From Kiritimatiellia bacterium (GTDB lineage: Bacteria > Verrucomicrobiota > Kiritimatiellia > RFP12 > UBA1067), in NCBI GenBank assembly GCA_018384485.1, contig JAHBAE010000097.1, positions 1-47,286 of the forward strand: a DNA stretch of 47,286 nt. The letters run 5' to 3'. The notes beneath the pieces were generated by a model. It saw only the letters and a program-made list of their open reading frames with translations. It searched no databases and was not told the origin of the DNA. How positions within the stretch are numbered: the first letter of the stretch is position 1; each line of letters opens with the position of its first letter. Made by a program: the position numbers and the translations under genes. Positions 36,299 to 47,286 of the stretch are shown here, one piece after another.

Positions 36299-36322
36299 AA
36301 CGGCGGCTGTGGAGCCGCCGTT
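36299..36322 (-). terminator. Perfect 10-bp hairpin after the giant gene
   Basis: AACGGCGGCT (36299-36308), loop GTGG, AGCCGCCGTT (36313-36322). It lies 25 nt past the stop codon of the giant surface-protein gene and before the NifU promoter. On the minus strand it is followed by TGCTCCC and then, 11 nt on, by AAAAAA, not a U-run. It probably ends the giant transcript, but by stem strength alone. Confidence 0.55.
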
Positions 36323-36346: not shown

Positions 36347-39300
36347 TTAGCGAATTATGATAATCGACCCGGGATGAGGTGTCATTGAAGCCCAAGGAGT
36401 GTTGCCGTAGGCGCCAAGATTTACGCGGCGGCCAGGGAAGCCCACTCCGGCACGGTCAGGCTCTTGAGAATAATCCGCTGTGGGATCGCCCCTATCGAGC
36501 GCCGGTGACGAAGCGCCAGTCGTATTGCGCCACGCTCCAGTGAACTCATCATACCATCCGCCTCGGCTTCTCAGATGAACATTAAACGCCTCAAGCTTCT
36601 CTAACGTTTCAGCATTATTAATAAAACGCAGCTGATTACGATTAAGAGAAAGTCGTGCTCCGGAGACTGAACAGTCTGGCAGACAACCGAGAAGATCGTC
36701 CATAGTTGTCACCAACAGAGGATCGGCGACATAAACATTGTTCGTAGTAATTATTCCTCCAGAAACGGCACGGATGTTATTCGTCCCAAGATCATCAACC
36801 ATTGAGTAGGAAATATGGCACTGCGCTCCGTCAGGATCATCCTGCTCGTAATTCACAAAAACATCAGCCGGGCATATGTTTTCAGTGCTGAGTTTGTTAG
36901 AATGGAAAATTGAGTTTGCGACATTCACTATCCCGCGTTGCACATAGATTACACCAGGGCAGCCGTACGAGCCTGCAAGGTTATACGCAAATGTGCAGTG
37001 GTCTATCGTAATTTCAGGACACTCCTCAAAGTCTCCTGTTACATAGATTATGCCACCATACCCAGATACATTTCCTGCACTCGGCCCAAACGTGTCGTCA
37101 TTAGCACTGATGTTGCCAACGAAACAGCAATTACGGAACACACTTCCACCAGTACCTGTCTGGAGCAAGATATGCCCTCCACTTCCACCTACAAAGATGC
37201 TATTCGCCACGAAGCGTGTATTTGCGACATTCAAACGGCAACCAGTCGCCTCAAAGATGGCGGCCTTGGCGCTCGAAAGGTAATTCACCCTCGCAAATCC
37301 AGTTCCATTGTCCTTAAAAAGACATCCATCTATTGTCACGCTCGCGAAGTTCTTGAAATAAGCAGCTTTTGACCCTGACTGGTTACTCACATAGGACGCA
37401 CCGTAATCGTATTTGTTATTACGGAACACACAGTTGGTGAATGAAAGATTTGCAGTCTTTCCAGAATCACCCTCAAAATAGCCGCCCGTACCAGAAGATG
37501 TAGAGCATCCGTCCACAAATTCGCATTCGCTGAACGCAAGGTCTCCTTTCGAGTTGTTCTTAATGAAATTCCTCGTCTGACCCTCGCTGAAGACGATTCG
37601 CTCAATGTACACTTTCTGCGAGTTCTCAAGCTTCAAATTGTCAGCAAGGAATTTCGCCGTCAAAAGCGACTTCACTCCATCTTTCCGCTCTTCGATAGAA
37701 TCTTCCGTCGCATCAAAACCGCCGCGAATGAGGACTGGGAAGTCGAAATTATACGCCGTCGAGGCTCCTGCAACAACATTCGTGCCAGCAAACCAAAGTT
37801 CGTTCCTCTCGGCGGTCAAGAGACTTATACCCTTATGGAACGACGTTACGGCATCGCCCCAACTCGTGCCGTCGCCAGAGCCGAACGCGCCCTCGCGCAC
37901 GTGCACCACCTTGGTAGGGTCACCGCCATGGCCGTACCACGAAGGCAATTTTCCCTCTGCGGACGTATTTTGAGAAATTGCGTTCTTTGAGATGCCATTT
38001 GCCGTCAACACCACCTCGGCAATCAACTCCGTGTTCGGCGGATAGACGAGCGGAACAAGATAAGATACAGCCTGACCACGGATTAGGTTACCGATGGGCT
38101 CGGAGATATGATCCCATGTCTTCCCTCCGTCGGAAGAGATATACACGGTCGCATTTGCAATAAACGTGCCCTCTCCGCCAACCGTAAACTCAATCTGCGG
38201 GCGAGTAAACTCCGTCGGGAACGTTATCTTAACATCTCCATCGATTTCAGCAAGTCCAATCGCCGACTTTGAAGCCCACCTCGTTCCACCGTATGCGCCC
38301 ATATTGATGATCATATTTTCGGGAGCCACATATTCGTCGCGAAGGCTGTCGAGAGGATCGCCCTTGTCTATCGCGGGCGAAAGCACCCCTTCTTCTGCTT
38401 GCAATTCCTCTCCGGCATTGTTAAAGTAGCCAGATTCGGAAAGCACGTGAGCATCGAAGTTCTGCATCATCCAGTCAGGCTTCTTAGCAGGGTCAAAGTA
38501 CATAATCTTCGGTTTTGACCCGTCAAAGTTATAAACAAGATTGGTAACTGATAAAACCGGCGTCACAAAAAGCGCGTCTCCATAGAGCACTCCTTCGCCT
38601 AACTCAAGCGTTCCGCCAGCCTGGCATGCTGTGGCGACATCTGTGGAACGAAGCGCGCCGTCCTGAGAAAGAAGCGTGTACGAGACATAGCATGAAGCGC
38701 CGCTGCGGACATTGATGTCAACCGACTTGTCAGACGCATTTGCACCTATCATATTTCCGCCGAACACGCAGTTTTTGACATTTACCGAACCTGCGGTGAC
38801 GGTAAGGCCTGCCGCGCAGTACTTGCCATCGCAGAGGTTGTAGGCGAATGTGCAATTTTCAATATCCACCGTATAAGCGGCATTTCCGAGTGAAACTACT
38901 AAAGCACCGCCTTTATCCGATACAGGCGTTCCGTTGGAAGACCAGTTTCTAGTGTCCTGGTTCGCCGCGAAAAGACAGTTCTTCAGAGTCGAGCCGTTAG
39001 CAGAGCTTGTAAGTACTACAGTTCCTCCGCTGCCAGTTTCATGAATTACACGGTTACCGCAGAATCGAGAGTAACTGATATGCGTTGGAACGGTAGAGTA
39101 AATTGCACCACCAGAGAATGTCCCCGACCTTGGATTGCCAGAATGGGACGTTGAAGGAGTAACAGAAGGATGCCCATTTCCATTGAAACGGCAATCAACG
39201 ACCGTAAGCGATGCGCCAGAATCAATGTAAATGCCAGAACCATTACCCTGACCAGTAGATCCATCGTAGACTTCATCAATGAGCATGTTGCCCATAAAGA

Positions 39301-42300
39301 GCGTATTCGTTACGAATACGTGCGCTCCTGAAGCTGATGTAATACTTATTCCTTTACCATTTCCCTGGTTCTTAGTGCCATGGACGCCATTGGTAAGGAA
39401 GGTGCAACTAATGACGGACAAATCGCCACCACCAGTCTTATGGATACCGCGGTCATAGGAATTGTAGAGAACAAGCCTATCTACCTCGGCTGAAATTCCT
39501 AAAGTGTTATTAATAACAATCGGGTTATACTGATTATTGCCGTCAATCACAGAAGCACTGTTTGAAGGCCGCTCGTCAGGCGTATTCTCTACAGCTGTAA
39601 AGCCGCCACGGATGGCGATACTACGCGAGGGGGTGAAGTTGTATGATCCTGTCGTAAGATACCAGTTGCCTGCAATCCAAATTTCTTTTGTTCGTGCATC
39701 AAGCGCCGCTACCGCCGCATCAAGATCAGTATATGCGTCACGCCAATTTGTGCCGTTATTCGCACCGGTAGCATCGGCCCAGACGTGGATGATACCATCG
39801 CCACCACCCTTGCCCCACCACGGAGGCATCTCACCTGTCACAGTTATGGTGGTATCGTTTGTCAGCACATGGTCGCCAGATGTGACAAGCACTCTCACAT
39901 AGAGCGTGCTGCCGCTCTTATACGGCTCGGTTTTCTGGAGATAAGAGAAATGCTCTCCGCCACGAACAGGCAAGGCGGGCGACCGAAATGTCGTATTGTC
40001 AAAACCATTCGTTCCGCAAAGCACATTTACGATGGCAGTATAGTCAAGCTGCGCCGCCTTAAGATCAAAATCAATCTTGGGGAACGAAGTATTATCAGGG
40101 AAAGTAATGGTGACTAAATTATCTGCAATCTCCGGTTCGACACTATATGTACGCGAGGCCTCCGCGGTATTACCATAGGCGCCAAGGTTAATGAAGTTCC
40201 CGTTTGGATGAGGCTCAAGCGAGCAGTCGTCTGCTGGGTCGCCGGCGTCAATGGCGGGCGAAACAGCATCACCTCCCGTGTGCAATACACCATCATTATC
40301 TAAATAGCCGGCGACAGTTACAAGGTGAACATCGCCCGTGGCAGCGATTTTTTCCATACCGGCATCATAAGCCATACCGGGAACGGTAGAATTGCGCACC
40401 GTAAGATTAAGCGTATCTCCAGAGACGAACAATGGATTATTTACCATACAGCTTTCGTCAATCGTAACGGGACCCGTACCCTTCACAGCTTCCTCTATGT
40501 CGATATCGAACATCGAGTATGAAAGGTTTATAACACCATTGCCTGTTGTATGCATGTACTTGCCGTAGTTGCCAGCATCAGTAGCGGCAGCGCGGCGAAC
40601 TCCTCCGTAGAAAATTGAGTTTTTGACATTAACCGTTCCGACATACGCGAGCAAATCAGTCGGAACAATATTGCCCGAGGCAAGGTTCCATGCGAAAGTG
40701 CAGTTCTCAACTGATACCTCACGGACTTTCTGATCGAGATTGATGACGACCGCGCCTCCGATGGTGCCGGCATCGGCCGCATTACCTGTGCGTGTAACAG
40801 ACTCATTGCCTACAAACGCACAATTTGCTATGCGGCTGCCGCCGCAGAGGCCCTTGAGGTAGATTATGCCGCCATGATTTTCTGTCTTATAGTTGCAGGC
40901 ACGGTTGCCGGCAAAACGGCAGCCTGTAATGGTAACTGGCGTGTCGACTGCATAAACACAAGTTCCTACCGGCCTTACGTCCCCAGTTCCAATAGAGGTA
41001 AGTGAATAGGGAGCACCATTTGTGAGGAATATCGAATCTTCTACCGTTAACGATTTCTGCGCCTTGTTTACATATATGCACGGACCATCGAGCAGGGCGT
41101 TGGAGGTGGCGCGGCGACCGTTACCCTCAAAGCGGCAGCTACGGAAAGCAAGATTCGCTGCTGGATGAGCTGAACGGGCGAAGTAAACAGCAGCCCCGCT
41201 AATGGCAGTTGCGTCAGTAGCACCGTTATTGTAAAAACCACAGTCAATAAACTCAAGATCGCCACTTGAATCGCCGCGATAGAAAGCGCGAGAGAAGCCA
41301 TTCCTGAAATCCACACGCTCAACGGTGAGTTTACCCTGGTTATGCAGGTAGAAGCATGTAAAGCGCATATTGCCGTCAATAGTCGAGGTGGCACCGTCTA
41401 CACGCTCATCGGCAGAATCCTCAACGCCTGTAAAGCCTCCTCTGATTATAGCGGGATAGCCGTTACGGAAATAATCGGGAGCGACAGTATGAGAAATCGT
41501 CCCAGCGAACCATATTTCGTTGCGGGTAGATGTGAGAGCGGAATACGCACGGCTGAAGTCTGGGAATGCGTCCGCCCAGCTCGTGCCACGCGGGTTCAGC
41601 GCTGTTGAACCTGCGCGGACATGAACGACCTTGTTAGGATCGCCACCATGGCCATACCACGGAGGAACATCTCCAGCCGCATTAACATTCAAGGACTTGA
41701 CAACATCAGCCTGTCCAGGCGCAGAAACAACTACATTCACTGTAAGAGAAGCTCCAGGAGTAAACGCTTCAGGACAATGCACGAGAACTTCACTTCCTTG
41801 CTGAAGGCCCACCAACTCGTGCACCCAGCTCTTACCGTCGCCCGTAATCTCAAGTTTCGCCGTGGCATTGTATGGAGTTCCATCACCGCCTAATCTAAAG
41901 GAAACAGAAGGCCCTGCCGATTCTGGCGAGAAGGAAACTTGAACATCGCCGTCGATTGTCGGCACGCCGAGAATTGACGGCGCTGCCTCCGATGTTGTAC
42001 CATAAAAACCAAGGTTGGCGATACCCCCGTTAGGTTCACTCTCCTCTCCGACTGGCCATGAAGGAATCGAGCCGTCGATAGCAGGCGAATACTTCGCAGC
42101 GTCAGTTACGACATGCGCATCGATGAGTGCTGCTGTAGCAGTACTCTTATAATAAATTTTAGTACACGTTGAAGATGTACGGGGAATACTGAAGTTATTT
42201 GGCTCATTTACAAGATTTTTAACCTCATCAGGCTTAGTTACGAAATTTGGATCTCCTACGATAATGTGTTCTCCAAGCGTAATCGTCGCTCCAGAATATG

Positions 42301-45300
42301 ACTTGAGATAAAAGGTGGAAAGCCCTCCGAAAAGCGTGTAGTCAATGTCCGCACTGCCACTGTGAATATAAAAATCAGCGGCTGCGCGATTCTCTGAGGA
42401 TATGGCGTTCCCAAAAAAGATCGAGTTTCTTACCTTTACCTTGGCGCAGATGACGTTGAGGCCCGCGGCTGAGCAAAACTGGAAATCGTTATTTTCCAAG
42501 TATTCCTTTGAGCCTTGCAGATTGTAAGCGAAAGTGCAATGGTCAATATCAATCGTCTTATCAGCTGATGGGAAATTGACATAAAGAGCACCGGAATTGC
42601 CGCCATTACCGAAGGATCCGTAATGACGGTTAGCGTTCGCAACCCACAAACAATTCGTGAACGCGCTTCCGCCGCAATCATTGACAAGGCATAGCGTACC
42701 GCCGGTACCTGGATGCGAAAGCTGGTTGGCTACTATGCGAGTATTGCGCATCGTAAGCGGCGCATTGTCGACATAAAGCGCTGAGCCGCGCGCGGTGCGC
42801 CAATTCTGCACCCAACCATTTGTAACGAAAAGGCAGTTATCAATGTAAACGCGCTTAAAGGTAGTAATATAGCCTCCAAAACCCGGATCAGTATCTATTA
42901 GGCGGCCAGTAGTACCTAACGTCATATTACCGCTCGACTCACAATCTTCAAAAATAGCGATTGCATCCTTAGTGCCTGCAAGGCAGAAACCTCGACCTTT
43001 TGAACGTTGGGGGGATGGCCCCCATGAATTGTTAAAGAAGCGACACTTGCGGAAAATAATCGACGAGCCGCCAGTTTTTACGAATCCGTGGAGGTAGCAC
43101 CTGCCAAAGGAGCAACGCTCGATGATGTTTGTGCAGTCGACAAAGGAGGCACCCACCGTCAACGCCTGTTCAATGGAACTTACCTTTGACGGAATGCCCT
43201 GCCCGTCGAACACAGTCTCAGGATTTGATTCGTCCAACTCAAGCGATACGCCTTCCTCGCCGAGGAAGCCGCCAAGCACAAGCCCTGGACGAGATAACGT
43301 AAGAGCGGCGGGAATTGGATATGTGCCGCTCTTGAAAAGAACAGCCGCAAGGCAACCTTCATTATGCGTATTTTCCGCTCCACTGAGCGCCGCCTGCGGT
43401 GCCATGGCATTCGCCCAAGATGTGCCGTCCTGTGTGCCTGCACCGGTTTCGGCAGCAAAGATGCCCTTGTAAATTACGAACGCGCGGGTGGCGCTGAGCC
43501 CCTCCGCCTGAGTCCCTGCAATACCTGTAACGAGCACACCGCCGAAACCATAAGTCTCGCAGTTATTATATGTCACAGTATAGTCAATGTCTTTCTTGAG
43601 CGTAACGCCATCAAGCTTGACGACAACTTCTGGCGTGACAGGCAAGCCGACGTAGATAATTTTTTCAGGCAGAGAAACCTCAAGATTCTTAGCTGTAGTA
43701 TCGCCCTCTACAATTGACAAAATAACCGCACCTGCACCACCTGCACCGCCGCGGGTCGAGTCATTATTGCCGCCACCGCCGCCGCCGGCACCGAAACCAT
43801 TGACACCCGCGCCGCCGTGCGCAGTCGTATCCGTACCATTGCCGCCGGCACCGGCGTTAATGCCGCCAATACCTCCGAGCGTGCCACCGCCGCCGCCGCC
43901 GGCGCCGTAAACGCCGACCTCCGCGCCGATGAAATACGGAGAACCTTGGCCGCCGTTTCTGCCAGACGCTGACGATTCCGTTGAAAACCCTTGCCAGAAA
44001 GAGCCGCCGCCGCCTGGCCCATAGACGTTGTAGGTATTGTTATTGATGCTGATGCCACCGCTATGCCCTTGAGTGGAGTCGTAATTCAAACCGTCTATAT
44101 GCGCCGTTGTATTCTTGTTGGCGCTGCCGCCAGAAGAGGCGATTGAGCCGCCGGAAGACGGAGCAGTCGAGAGCCAGGCGCCACCGCCGCCACCGCCGAA
44201 CGCCTCGATATTTATATCTCCCGCATGCAGGAACGAAGAGGCTCCCTTCCCGCCGGCACCGCCATTGGACGTAGAGGGAGAACCGCCTGCGCCAACCTCA
44301 AGCTTAATGCTCGAACCAGCAGGAACGAAAACCTTCTTTGCGACATGAATGACGCCGCCACCACCACCGCCGCCGCCTGCGCGGTTACCGCCGGCGCCAC
44401 CGCCGCCTACAACAAGCGCCTGTTCAATCGTCAAATCATGCTTCGCAGAGAGAGAGATTGTGCCTGGATTGAAAGTGTAGGCACGGGCGTTTCCGACAGC
44501 GACCGACACTGGCAACGCTGCAGTTGAATCAAAGTTATCGTCACTGTAAGAGAGGCTCTCACCTGTCACTGTTGCATTAATAGGTCCATTCACCTTCAAA
44601 GAGACGCGAGCGCCGCCGCCATTGTAAGAGGCATTATCGGGGATTCCCGTCCATCCACCAACAACTTTTCCTGCTGATGGCGTGTAGGCAATACTCGCAG
44701 TGGAGCCGAGTTCGATATATGCCTCTACCGACGCCGCCGCCTCGCCACCGTTGATTGAGACGAGTCCAGAACCGTCCGACACCGACACCGAGTACTTTGC
44801 CTTGATAACTCCGTCATCATTTATATAACCCTCCGGAAGCACCATCTCCGCGCCGGTAAAACGCGCACGATCAAGCGCTCGGTTGTAGGCAAGCTCGGCA
44901 TCGGTAAGAACGCGCTTATATATTCTAACGGCATAAAGGTCAAAGACGGCGTTGCGGTTCCCGATCCAAGTACCGATATTTACTTGGTCTGTAGTCGCCC
45001 TTCCGTTGTAGGCCGTGTTATCAAGGCAAAAGCCCTCATCGTTGAATGCAACCTTCGCACCCGCTCCATAGCGGACGATTGCAACAGATGTATCTTGACC
45101 GAAATAGCCACGCGTATCTTTGCCAATTCCTGCATACTGAAGATTCATCGACGTTGTTGCCGCATACTGAAGAGCGCCGAATGCACCGCGTTGTGCTTTA
45201 AGATAAGTAGTATCCCTATCACCCTGCATAGAGAGTATCAAATCGCGCACGTTAGCGCCATTTCCAATATGAATATAGGCGGCAGTCCAGTTAAAACACC

Positions 45301-47286
45301 TCGGACGGATGAACATTTCTACCGTCATTGACTTATCGTTAAGCGCGGCAGTGACACCGGAAACAAAATTCGACATATAAGTCTTACCGTCAAATGCGAT
45401 AGCGTTCACACGGCGGTCAAGCTCGCCACTGGCGCCCCATCCGTCAGTTGTACCTGTTTCATCAAGCCCATCCCAAGAGGCAATGAGACCATCGGAGATA
45501 TAGGCCGAGAACGGCATCGCTGTTGTAGCAGCTGTTTCCACAGTAGCCTCAACTGGAGATGCGGCCGTGAACGTAACCTTCTTTGCGCCGTCGCTCTTAA
45601 CGGCATTGCCAGGAAGCCCCGCCCAGTCTCTAAGCCCCCTGCCCTCGCTCGGCGTGTAGACGAATGTTACATTCTCGCCAACCGGCACCCAGACGCTCCC
45701 CTCATTACTACCGTTCACCGTCACCGTGCCTTCGGTAACTACGACATCTATCCTAACCTCAAGAAGATTACGAGCGGCATCAAACCGATAACCGTCAGGC
45801 AGCGTCTCTGGCAGAGCCTCCGCGAGCGACAAGCCGTCAAAGCGTATCTTATCGACTGCCGCGTTAAACGCCGCCTCCGTTGCGTCAAGCGGACGCGAGT
45901 AGATTCTCAACACATTGAACAAGCCTACGAAACGGTCTGTCGCATTATTGTAGCGGGCGCCAAGAGCTAAATAATCATTATTTCCGTCTACAGATATATT
46001 GCCAGTAGCTAAATTAGAAATCTTTTCACCGTTTACAAAGAAGTTTTCAGGGGCAGAGCCAGATTGATTGTACGAGACAGTATATGTTTTGCGCATTAGT
46101 CCCATCGGCGAAGACACCTTTGCAAGCGTAGCGGGAGAACCGTTGGCGCCGCCAAAGTAATTTCTGGCAGGCGAAGCGTTCATATACAATAACCTCGACG
46201 TATAGCGATTGTTCACCACTTGAGTAAAAGCATTGGTGCGGTATGGCGTGATGCTCGCTTCAATCGTATTCCAGTCAGGCAGAAGGTTTGCCATGTGAAG
46301 CGGATGGTTATTATTTATACAGCCCCACACCTCAAGCGCGTCTTCACGAAACGCGGCGCGCCCACGGATGAGATCCCAAGGATGCTGCTGCTGACCGGTG
46401 AGGTCGTACCACTTGAATGAAAGGCTGTCGTGGACACCTGGAGCGACATTCTCCTTTGCATCCCAAAGACCAATCAACCCCTTAGAGATATAAGTGAGAG
46501 CTGGGAGCTCCTGTTCTGCATAGACTGAAATCTTAGCAGGCGCGGCGGCAGTAAAGGTGACAGTGCGAGCGTCTGATGACTTTTCCGCCTTGAGAGGAAG
46601 CCCCGACCAGCGCACTTTCGTACCCTTTTCAGGCGTAAAGGTGACAGTAACTTTCGTGCCCACCTTAAAATAAGTGCCGCTTTCGAGAGAAGCTGCACCG
46701 CCCTTCGCTACGATATCATACATTACTTCGAGGCAACGCTTCTCGCTGTTCCAGCGATAGCCGTCAGGTAGAGTCATGTTGGCAAGCGTCGTTTCTTCGT
46801 CCGCGCCAAAGAAGCGTATTCTGTCGAGCGCGGCATTGAATGCGACCTCGACCGGCTCAAGAGGACGAGAATAGAAGCGGATTGAATAGAGCGAACCTGC
46901 TACTGTACTTTCCGTGTTGTCATATCTCGACCCTAATGCTGGATACGCCCCCATATTCCAACCAGTACAAGGAGAGCACCCTATCGGCACCTCAGAACCG
47001 TTCACATAGTAGTCAATGAGCCCATTAAGCCGTGATGCTGCGCTATCGCGATAGACGGCCGTAAGTGTATTGGCGTTACCGGCTCTGATTAACTCCGACT
47101 CGCCATAATCGCAAGCTCTCTGTACATTGTTTACCATATATCGCTGAGCGCCGAAGCCGCCAAAATCCGTTCGCACAATAAATATACGATCTTGGTCATC
47201 ACAATTTGAGAAAAGATACATGCCGGAATCGATTTTGGCGCAGAACTCGGCTGTAAGATAGCTGGGGACAGGATGCTTGGTGAAGG
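36347..47286 (-). CDS. Giant modular surface protein: LamG, InlB-like, glycine-rich and four Pmp-like beta-helix modules (N-terminus beyond window)
   Basis: More than 3,640 residues; the frame is open to the window edge (the codons above the ATG at 47221 continue without stop as YLTAEFCAKIDSG), so start and signal peptide are missing. Order from the N-terminal side: three LamG/concanavalin-like domains, each ended by a short InlB-type beta repeat; a glycine-rich domain; a small Ig-like domain; four beta-helix modules of about 615 residues with Ig-like linkers. Each beta-helix opens with GTSW or GTNW and DA or NA, contains CTFA(Y/W)NL and closes with SPA(I/L)D-x-G, usually DP, followed by NLG or NMG and a YG string. 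FxxN and GGA(I/V) motifs recall chlamydial Pmp adhesins. No autotransporter barrel, LPXTG, PEP-CTERM or other sorting tail is seen at the C-terminus (GSIIIIR). Likely an extracellular adhesin or glycan-binding protein (inference). Confidence 0.85.
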   Translation of the reverse strand, partial: FTKHPVPSYLTAEFCAKIDSGMYLFSNCDDQDRIFIVRTDFGGFGAQRYMVNNVQRACDYGESELIRAGNANTLTAVYRDSAASRLNGLIDYYVNGSEVPIGCSPCTGWNMGAYPALGSRYDNTESTVAGSLYSIRFYSRPLEPVEVAFNAALDRIRFFGADEETTLANMTLPDGYRWNSEKRCLEVMYDIVAKGGAASLESGTYFKVGTKVTVTFTPEKGTKVRWSGLPLKAEKSSDARTVTFTAAAPAKISVYAEQELPALTYISKGLIGLWDAKENVAPGVHDSLSFKWYDLTGQQQHPWDLIRGRAAFREDALEVWGCINNNHPLHMANLLPDWNTIEASITPYRTNAFTQVVNNRYTSRLLYMNASPARNYFGGANGSPATLAKVSSPMGLMRKTYTVSYNQSGSAPENFFVNGEKISNLATGNISVDGNNDYLALGARYNNATDRFVGLFNVLRIYSRPLDATEAAFNAAVDKIRFDGLSLAEALPETLPDGYRFDAARNLLEVRIDVVVTEGTVTVNGSNEGSVWVPVGENVTFVYTPSEGRGLRDWAGLPGNAVKSDGAKKVTFTAASPVEATVETAATTAMPFSAYISDGLIASWDGLDETGTTDGWGASGELDRRVNAIAFDGKTYMSNFVSGVTAALNDKSMTVEMFIRPRCFNWTAAYIHIGNGANVRDLILSMQGDRDTTYLKAQRGAFGALQYAATTSMNLQYAGIGKDTRGYFGQDTSVAIVRYGAGAKVAFNDEGFCLDNTAYNGRATTDQVNIGTWIGNRNAVFDLYAVRIYKRVLTDAELAYNRALDRARFTGAEMVLPEGYINDDGVIKAKYSVSVSDGSGLVSINGGEAAASVEAYIELGSTASIAYTPSAGKVVGGWTGIPDNASYNGGGARVSLKVNGPINATVTGESLSYSDDNFDSTAALPVSVAVGNARAYTFNPGTISLSAKHDLTIEQALVVGGGGAGGNRAGGGGGGGGVIHVAKKVFVPAGSSIKLEVGAGGSPSTSNGGAGGKGASSFLHAGDINIEAFGGGGGGAWLSTAPSSGGSIASSGGSANKNTTAHIDGLNYDSTQGHSGGISINNNTYNVYGPGGGGSFWQGFSTESSASGRNGGQGSPYFIGAEVGVYGAGGGGGGTLGGIGGINAGAGGNGTDTTAHGGAGVNGFGAGGGGGGNNDSTRGGAGGAGAVILSIVEGDTTAKNLEVSLPEKIIYVGLPVTPEVVVKLDGVTLKKDIDYTVTYNNCETYGFGGVLVTGIAGTQAEGLSATRAFVIYKGIFAAETGAGTQDGTSWANAMAPQAALSGAENTHNEGCLAAVLFKSGTYPIPAALTLSRPGLVLGGFLGEEGVSLELDESNPETVFDGQGIPSKVSSIEQALTVGASFVDCTNIIERCSFGRCYLHGFVKTGGSSIIFRKCRFFNNSWGPSPQRSKGRGFCLAGTKDAIAIFEDCESSGNMTLGTTGRLIDTDPGFGGYITTFKRVYIDNCLFVTNGWVQNWRTARGSALYVDNAPLTMRNTRIVANQLSHPGTGGTLCLVNDCGGSAFTNCLWVANANRHYGSFGNGGNSGALYVNFPSADKTIDIDHCTFAYNLQGSKEYLENNDFQFCSAAGLNVICAKVKVRNSIFFGNAISSENRAAADFYIHSGSADIDYTLFGGLSTFYLKSYSGATITLGEHIIVGDPNFVTKPDEVKNLVNEPNNFSIPRTSSTCTKIYYKSTATAALIDAHVVTDAAKYSPAIDGSIPSWPVGEESEPNGGIANLGFYGTTSEAAPSILGVPTIDGDVQVSFSPESAGPSVSFRLGGDGTPYNATAKLEITGDGKSWVHELVGLQQGSEVLVHCPEAFTPGASLTVNVVVSAPGQADVVKSLNVNAAGDVPPWYGHGGDPNKVVHVRAGSTALNPRGTSWADAFPDFSRAYSALTSTRNEIWFAGTISHTVAPDYFRNGYPAIIRGGFTGVEDSADERVDGATSTIDGNMRFTCFYLHNQGKLTVERVDFRNGFSRAFYRGDSSGDLEFIDCGFYNNGATDATAISGAAVYFARSAHPAANLAFRSCRFEGNGRRATSNALLDGPCIYVNKAQKSLTVEDSIFLTNGAPYSLTSIGTGDVRPVGTCVYAVDTPVTITGCRFAGNRACNYKTENHGGIIYLKGLCGGSRIANCAFVGNESVTRTGNAADAGTIGGAVVINLDQKVREVSVENCTFAWNLASGNIVPTDLLAYVGTVNVKNSIFYGGVRRAAATDAGNYGKYMHTTGNGVINLSYSMFDIDIEEAVKGTGPVTIDESCMVNNPLFVSGDTLNLTVRNSTVPGMAYDAGMEKIAATGDVHLVTVAGYLDNDGVLHTGGDAVSPAIDAGDPADDCSLEPHPNGNFINLGAYGNTAEASRTYSVEPEIADNLVTITFPDNTSFPKIDFDLKAAQLDYTAIVNVLCGTNGFDNTTFRSPALPVRGGEHFSYLQKTEPYKSGSTLYVRVLVTSGDHVLTNDTTITVTGEMPPWWGKGGGDGIIHVWADATGANNGTNWRDAYTDLDAAVAALDARTKEIWIAGNWYLTTGSYNFTPSRSIAIRGGFTAVENTPDERPSNSASVIDGNNQYNPIVINNTLGISAEVDRLVLYNSYDRGIHKTGGGDLSVISCTFLTNGVHGTKNQGNGKGISITSASGAHVFVTNTLFMGNMLIDEVYDGSTGQGNGSGIYIDSGASLTVVDCRFNGNGHPSVTPSTSHSGNPRSGTFSGGAIYSTVPTHISYSRFCGNRVIHETGSGGTVVLTSSANGSTLKNCLFAANQDTRNWSSNGTPVSDKGGALVVSLGNAAYTVDIENCTFAYNLCDGKYCAAGLTVTAGSVNVKNCVFGGNMIGANASDKSVDINVRSGASCYVSYTLLSQDGALRSTDVATACQAGGTLELGEGVLYGDALFVTPVLSVTNLVYNFDGSKPKIMYFDPAKKPDWMMQNFDAHVLSESGYFNNAGEELQAEEGVLSPAIDKGDPLDSLRDEYVAPENMIINMGAYGGTRWASKSAIGLAEIDGDVKITFPTEFTRPQIEFTVGGEGTFIANATVYISSDGGKTWDHISEPIGNLIRGQAVSYLVPLVYPPNTELIAEVVLTANGISKNAISQNTSAEGKLPSWYGHGGDPTKVVHVREGAFGSGDGTSWGDAVTSFHKGISLLTAERNELWFAGTNVVAGASTAYNFDFPVLIRGGFDATEDSIEERKDGVKSLLTAKFLADNLKLENSQKVYIERIVFSEGQTRNFIKNNSKGDLAFSECEFVDGCSTSSGTGGYFEGDSGKTANLSFTNCVFRNNKYDYGASYVSNQSGSKAAYFKNFASVTIDGCLFKDNGTGFARVNYLSSAKAAIFEATGCRLNVANTRFVANSIFVGGSGGHILLQTGTGGSVFRNCCFVGNISANDDTFGPSAGNVSGYGGIIYVTGDFEECPEITIDHCTFAYNLAGSYGCPGVIYVQRGIVNVANSIFHSNKLSTENICPADVFVNYEQDDPDGAQCHISYSMVDDLGTNNIRAVSGGIITTNNVYVADPLLVTTMDDLLGCLPDCSVSGARLSLNRNQLRFINNAETLEKLEAFNVHLRSRGGWYDEFTGAWRNTTGASSPALDRGDPTADYSQEPDRAGVGFPGRRVNLGAYGNTPWASMTPHPGSIIIIR
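36390..37920 (-). other. Beta-helix module 4 of the giant protein
   Basis: Preceded by PSWYGHGGDPTK. Opens VVHVREGAFGSGDGTSW, then LIRGGFDATEDSIEER; contains HCTFAYNL near 36990 and VANSIFHSN; closes SPALDRGDP and NLGAYGNTPWAS. The protein ends 10-12 residues later, so no anchor domain follows. Confidence 0.75.
38270..39800 (-). other. Beta-helix module 3 of the giant protein
   Basis: Preceded by PPWWGKGGGDG. Opens IIHVWADATGANNGTNW, then AIRGGFTAVENTPDER; contains NCTFAYNL near 38848 and VKNCVFGGN; closes SPAIDKGDP and NMGAYGGTRWAS. FxxN units include FMGN, RFNGN and RFCGN; GGAI occurs as FSGGAIYS and GGAL as KGGALVVS. Confidence 0.75.
40150..41640 (-). other. Beta-helix module 2 of the giant protein
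   Basis: Preceded by PPWYGHGGDPNK. Opens VVHVRAGSTALNPRGTSW, then IIRGGFTGVEDSADER; contains NCTFAWNL near 40697 and VKNSIFYGG; closes SPAIDAGDP and NLGAYGNTAEAS. FxxN units include RFEGN, RFAGN and FVGN; GGAV occurs as IGGAVVIN. Confidence 0.75.
42000..43475 (-). other. Beta-helix module 1 of the giant protein
   Basis: Opens with FAAETGAGTQDGTSWANAM, has HCTFAYNL near 42530, VRNSIFFGNA after it, and closes with YSPAIDG and NLGFYGTTSEA. It lacks the upstream PPWYGHGGD linker found before modules 2 and 4 and directly follows the small Ig-like domain. It is the most divergent module at its exit (SIPSWP instead of GDP). Confidence 0.7.
43715..44425 (-). other. Glycine-rich domain of the giant protein
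   Basis: About 235 residues with runs of Gly: LVVGGGGAGGN, GGGGGGGGVIHV, VPAGSSIKLEVGAGGSPS, FGGGGGGAW, ending GGAGAVILSIVEG. The alternation of Gly-runs and beta strands with VGAGG matches glycine-rich domains of tail fibres and surface proteins, some of which fold as packed polyglycine-II helices. The DNA is a dense GCC/GGC trinucleotide stretch and is prone to slippage. Confidence 0.75.
44555..47286 (-). other. Three LamG-like plus InlB-like module pairs in the giant protein
   Basis: LamG-like domains lie at about 47286-46850, 46500-45840 and 45515-44870. Each ends in an echo of (F/V/I)YSRPL or IYKRVL, then (F/Y)N-A/R-A-(L/V)D-(R/K)-(I/A)RF. Each is followed by LP-(D/E)-GY and an InlB-type beta unit (about 46725-46510, 45765-45530, 44805-44555) containing (F/A)-(T/V)-YTP or FTPEKG, then W-(S/A/T)-G-(L/I)-P, then V(T/S)(F/L). 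The second and third open with YIS-(K/D)-GLI-x-(L/S)-WD. LamG folds often bind glycans or proteins. Confidence 0.75.

Follow-up and report, generated by a model that had tools for sequence, protein, structure and literature searches.

The analysed stretch (the window, 47,286 bases) is a complete contig from an assembly of 1.82 Mb in 117 contigs, and it carries a giant open reading frame (ORF) of 3,645 codons on the minus strand (36347..47284). The stop codon lies at 36347-36349, and the frame is open on its 5' side, where the contig end cuts it. Because the window spans the whole contig, the 5' part of the ORF is missing from the assembly, in agreement with the sequence-only reading of this DNA, which had described more than 3,640 residues and a start outside the window. 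A LamG-like domain was found at residues 342-470 (45875..46261, minus strand; PF13385, E 1.1e-8, the best of three stretches), as that reading had proposed; its InlB-like domains found no supporting Pfam model, and it had not mentioned a Gly-rich domain at residues 941-1190 (43715..44464, minus strand; PF21722, E 1.4e-13). On the same strand lie four homologous beta-helix modules, which could be aligned: module 1 (42212..43453, the portion aligning with module 4), module 2 (40148..41632), module 3 (38264..39793) and module 4 (36350..37912, including the C-terminal tail). The exit of the last module (36407..36514, minus strand), of the form SPAIDAGDP...NLGAYGNT, is similar to NCBIfam choice-of-anchor Q (NF041518), which at 12.7 bits, below the cut-off of 25, would be the closest described label for it. 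The ORF closes with the tail GSIIIIR and the stop codon (36347..36370, minus strand). A 10-bp GC-rich hairpin with a T tract on its plus-strand side (36299..36322, not assigned to a strand) lies about 25 nt past the stop; it is a pattern match only, and shuffling the scanned stretch yields 0.8 sites of this kind. We read the giant protein as a modular cell-envelope protein that probably binds carbohydrate or matrix.

The closest relative was found in the uncultured bacterium RUG11534 (L065), with 81% identity across the last 150 residues. The relative's ORF of 5,231 codons (L281) is complete and shares 66% identity with the window's protein across residues 1-1796 of the latter; it begins with MKESDMKQAMKLVVSIACAVLGAATALAVA, a Sec-type signal peptide by inspection. 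The N-terminus that was to be read from the upstream flank is thus seen in this relative, the window's own lying off the contig.

Structure prediction with AlphaFold for module 4 together with 18 relatives gave a confident model (pLDDT 80.0, pTM 0.87). VIA-align identified it as a right-handed parallel beta-helix with the RbmB polysaccharide lyase as the best match (Z 25.9, 303 aligned, rmsd 2.6); numerous lyases, as well as phage tailspikes, matched at Z 20-25, while Foldseek E-values were modest (two at or below 0.001). Since this fold does not reveal function, we claim no lyase activity for module 4. The description of a giant modular surface-type protein with four beta-helix modules was thereby borne out. 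Its assignment to the chlamydial Pmp adhesins was not. The beta-helix and the FxxN motif are common to both, and the beta-helix tract contains 28 FxxN where 8.1 would be expected, an enrichment reached by 0 of 2000 shuffles. The other Pmp signature reported earlier, GGA(I/V/L), occurred only 3 times, which is near chance, as 33 of 2000 shuffles also reached it. Most FxxN occurrences have the form xCxFxxN, and we infer that the motif is a generic beta-helix turn or repeat instead of a Pmp mark. The giant protein had no match to Chlam_PMP (PF02415) at E values up to 10, nor had any part of the window's genome, whereas a control genome did match. It also had no Pfam autotransporter barrel, and module 4 stays a beta-helix up to the C-terminus in the model, so that the earlier statement that no barrel closes the protein was correct. 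With the nearest folds being lyases and tailspikes (Z 20-26), we rejected Pmp membership; that the protein is a Pmp-type adhesin or another autotransporter is barely conceivable, even with the FxxN enrichment of its modules in favour.

The window's protein ends with PGSIIIIR, of which GSIIIIR fits the consensus G-[FSL]-x-phi-x-phi-R directly before the stop. A frameshift or early stop at this C-terminus was excluded, as no continuing frame exists downstream and relatives stop at the same place; the ending near the module exit was therefore correctly read before. With the last 34 residues as the query, matches fell on the C-termini of numerous giant ORFs, both within the same genome and elsewhere in the genus. 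Among 24 aligned relatives, G(-7) and R(-1) were invariant and the residues in between were variable, these relatives having been pre-selected with a loose tail filter. The unfiltered count carries more weight: of 50 ORFs whose end lies no more than 30 aa from the module exit, 41 carried G-x5-R before the stop. The nine others comprised eight of different lineages (Acidobacteria, Planctomycetes-type and Sumerlaeota MAGs) and one of the genus (L057). None of 56 internal module ends carried G-x5-R. Two tailed ORFs lie outside the rumen genus, one in a Kiritimatiellae MAG (L097, PTGAVMVVR) and one in a PVC-group MAG (L110, RGSLFIIR). The preferred pattern was [PS]-G-[FSL]-x-[IYLV]-[IYF]-[LVI]-R, in which positions -6, -4, -3 and -2 are partly set by the search pattern, and a K-ended variant, GFIVILK, was seen in L186. 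The codons for the tail G and R vary, as does the stop codon, which points to selection on the protein and argues against a nucleotide element. In the AlphaFold model the tail is unpacked (pLDDT about 42) on a confident beta-helix. That these proteins share a C-terminal motif is thus well supported. Homologues with the same C-terminus were decisive here, and the earlier statement that the protein has no sorting tail is probably wrong, as its last seven residues are this conserved motif.

The distribution of the tail was then followed with DNA patterns and by homology. In 35 genomes of the genus, a DNA pattern for the tail matched 70 times and the reversed-pattern control 10 times; the corresponding numbers for 23 genomes from other families of the order were 17 and 15. 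At phylum level, pattern matches were near the control level. In 52 of the 59 places examined, the match ended a frame of at least 100 aa, and the sites were mostly long ORFs, many with signal peptides, with diverse last domains. The first tail pattern, GGNNNNNNNNTNNTNNTNCGNTRA, produced chiefly chance matches in the window's own genome. The second DNA pattern produced none there, compared with at least six tails found by homology, and hence undercounts. Random stretches (510 ORFs) contained 8 regex matches, of which 2 look real. The tail also occurs in G136, which belongs to the same family and a different genus. A candidate occurrence in family f36 was rejected as a repeated element in G225 and as short frames in G201, G222 and G299. 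In G225 a near-identical short frame end, SARLGSAHF[VL]R, is present about 25 times, often at contig ends, and looks like the end of a mobile element.

All retrieved loci together contained 96 distinct gene-like tailed ORFs, a count enriched by the choice of loci through homology or pattern; the open-ended rows of 507 aa among them are cut by the locus edge. Single-linkage clustering of the preceding 250 residues divided the 96 into 40 clusters, the beta-helix cluster accounting for 43 ORFs and some of the singletons probably being chance (doubtful cases include ORFs of 166 aa and 116 aa and the 233-aa ORF of L110). Pfam matches in the tailed proteins included LamG, Gly_rich_2, BspA LRR and PATR, and many had no match. 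These counts bear on whether the tail could be a structural strand that closes the beta-helix, or whichever domain comes last, with no sorting role. It is indeed strand-like, and some longer proteins carry a G-hydrophobic strand beyond the module exit (L067, L082, L088). Nevertheless, the tail also follows LamG, Gly-rich, LRR and other unrelated ends, is unpacked in the model and is missing at the internal module ends, and we regard such a purely structural role as very unlikely.

Tailed proteins are predominantly predicted to be exported. A signal-peptide-like start was detected in 41 of 52 complete tailed ORFs of at least 300 aa and in 125 of 429 other ORFs (Fisher P 5e-12, indicative only because the ORFs are related; the signal-peptide rule is a home-made heuristic). 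Among the 11 tailed ORFs failing the heuristic, two (L284, L048) have a signal peptide by eye, two (L254, L262) received one from a less strict script, and in four, which are sigma-factor fusions, it is internal. These fusions, all from G012 (L058 7372-10629, plus strand; L227 4236-8024, plus strand; L229 575-3403, minus strand; L230 593-3472, minus strand), join sigma-factor and surface parts in the order ECF-sigma-factor-like N-terminus, membrane helix, in-frame second signal-peptide-like stretch and tailed surface domain. Pfam sigma-70 regions 2 and 4 were identified in L230, and the other three were assigned by sequence likeness. The internal ATG of the second signal-peptide-like stretch is preceded by a purine-rich, Shine-Dalgarno-like stretch, and each fusion might yield both a tethered regulator and a secreted protein.

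Within the retrieved loci, a set enriched by locus choice, 24 of 35 signal-peptide ORFs of at least 1000 aa carried the tail, and at least two of the 11 lacking it (L057, L059) may be assembly faults. At L059 (2283-14081) and L016, a G032 ORF of 3,932 codons stops tail-less, and the tail closes a separate frame of 90 codons immediately downstream, probably reflecting a frameshift in the G032 assembly or gene. Two signal-peptide proteins of about 3,600 codons (L175 4158-14948; L290 1673-12649) have no tail and share the ending ..LKYDDT.P..LT.., possibly another C-terminal class. The median length of the signal-peptide ORFs in the retrieved loci was 1,078 aa with the tail versus 403 aa without it. 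Some periplasmic proteases read extreme C-termini, and with tailed proteins being this long the tail might merely shield them from such enzymes. This would leave the fixed G at -7 unexplained and would not account for most other exported proteins being without the tail, which makes a protease shield very improbable to our judgement.

We infer the function of the tail from its likeness to other C-terminal tags, and a shared C-terminal sorting signal is the reading that we consider reasonably probable. The tail would then be a previously unrecognised cell-surface address label on otherwise unrelated exported proteins of rumen Kiritimatiellae, as it probably is, and the 'missing anchor' of the giant protein is probably the tag itself. 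The giant protein would enter the periplasm via Sec, and its unpacked C-terminal strand would be recognised in trans by a common outer-membrane receptor, which would send the protein to the cell surface or hold it there. Recognition in trans is the natural reading of a tail that has seven residues, is unpacked and strand-like and lies at the extreme end. It could proceed by beta-strand addition, as Omp85/BamA-type proteins read the last strand of their clients, a step that by itself we put forward only tentatively, as a lead, and think rather unlikely. Whether rumen-type Kiritimatiellae possess an undescribed sorting system, in which a receptor reads a seven-residue tag with no transmembrane helix or folded domain and so brings giant modular proteins to the surface, is in our estimate evenly balanced. 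The tag would fill there the role played elsewhere by a T9SS domain, PEP-CTERM or an autotransporter barrel. The tail also makes it simple to compile likely surface proteins for a gut and rumen lineage of which almost nothing is in culture. The literature covered on Kiritimatiellota sorting signals contained no description of the tail, and as this coverage was partial it does not prove novelty.

PEP-CTERM, PGF-CTERM, GlyGly-CTERM and MYXO-CTERM resemble the tail in being short C-termini with a basic end, common to many unrelated exported proteins of one lineage. Tags of the PEP-CTERM class combine a signature motif, a transmembrane helix and a basic cluster (PMC11980579). They differ from the tail by this helix and by their processing enzymes, the tail having seven residues and no helix; the 4-5 hydrophobic residues between G/S and R do not make up a tripartite C-terminus with a transmembrane helix. 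The main rival to the sorting-signal reading is nonetheless exosortase processing, in which the tail would be an extremely short relative of PEP-/PGF-CTERM, cut by exosortase and perhaps transferred to lipid or sugar. The parts come in a similar order (P-G-[FS], hydrophobic stretch, R); exosortase was detected in 55 of 58 genomes, with one strong match in G000. Yet the hydrophobic stretch is too short to form a membrane helix, 49 of the 58 genomes also have PEP-CTERM proteins in the strict sense, and families of the order in which the tail pattern does not rise above the control have exosortase just as well; we consider this processing route improbable. PEP-CTERM matches numbered 24-33 per genome in the order's other families (for example G041, G045, G049, G052 and G055) versus 0-12 in the window's genus, in which the tail is common, and perhaps one sorting system partly replaced another between them.

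The T9SS C-terminal domain likewise ends giant modular surface proteins, and in other phyla further domains that resemble T9SS tails can come after the same module exit (L087, L096, by eye). It is folded, has about 70-80 residues and uses its own translocon, unlike the seven-residue tail. TIGR04183 was absent in all searched genomes of the genus and occurred in 2 of 58 genomes, both of other families, which makes T9SS an unlikely export route; a search for SprA matched 0 of 58 genomes, the control genomes giving no match either. Rhombotarget A (PDB 9cdv), which by its name we take to be a rhombosortase target, is a right-handed beta-helix like module 4 (VIA-align Z 21.1, 296 aligned, rmsd 3.2), a fold also common to many lyases and tailspikes, and its sorting signal belongs to another class. 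The beta-signal consensus of Omp85 clients has the spacing G-x-x-phi-x-phi, and the tail is alike in this spacing and in its position as a strand at the extreme C-terminus. The known beta-signal forms the final strand of a barrel within the client itself, whereas the tailed proteins have no barrel and end in R. The beta-signal pairs with strand 1 of BamA or Sam50 (PMC8292188). C-terminal tags have earlier led to entire sorting systems (sortase, exosortase, rhombosortase, myxosortase). If the sorting-signal reading is true, a tag this short with no membrane helix would represent a different design, and the question becomes a testable one, namely what reads G-x-x-phi-x-phi-R.
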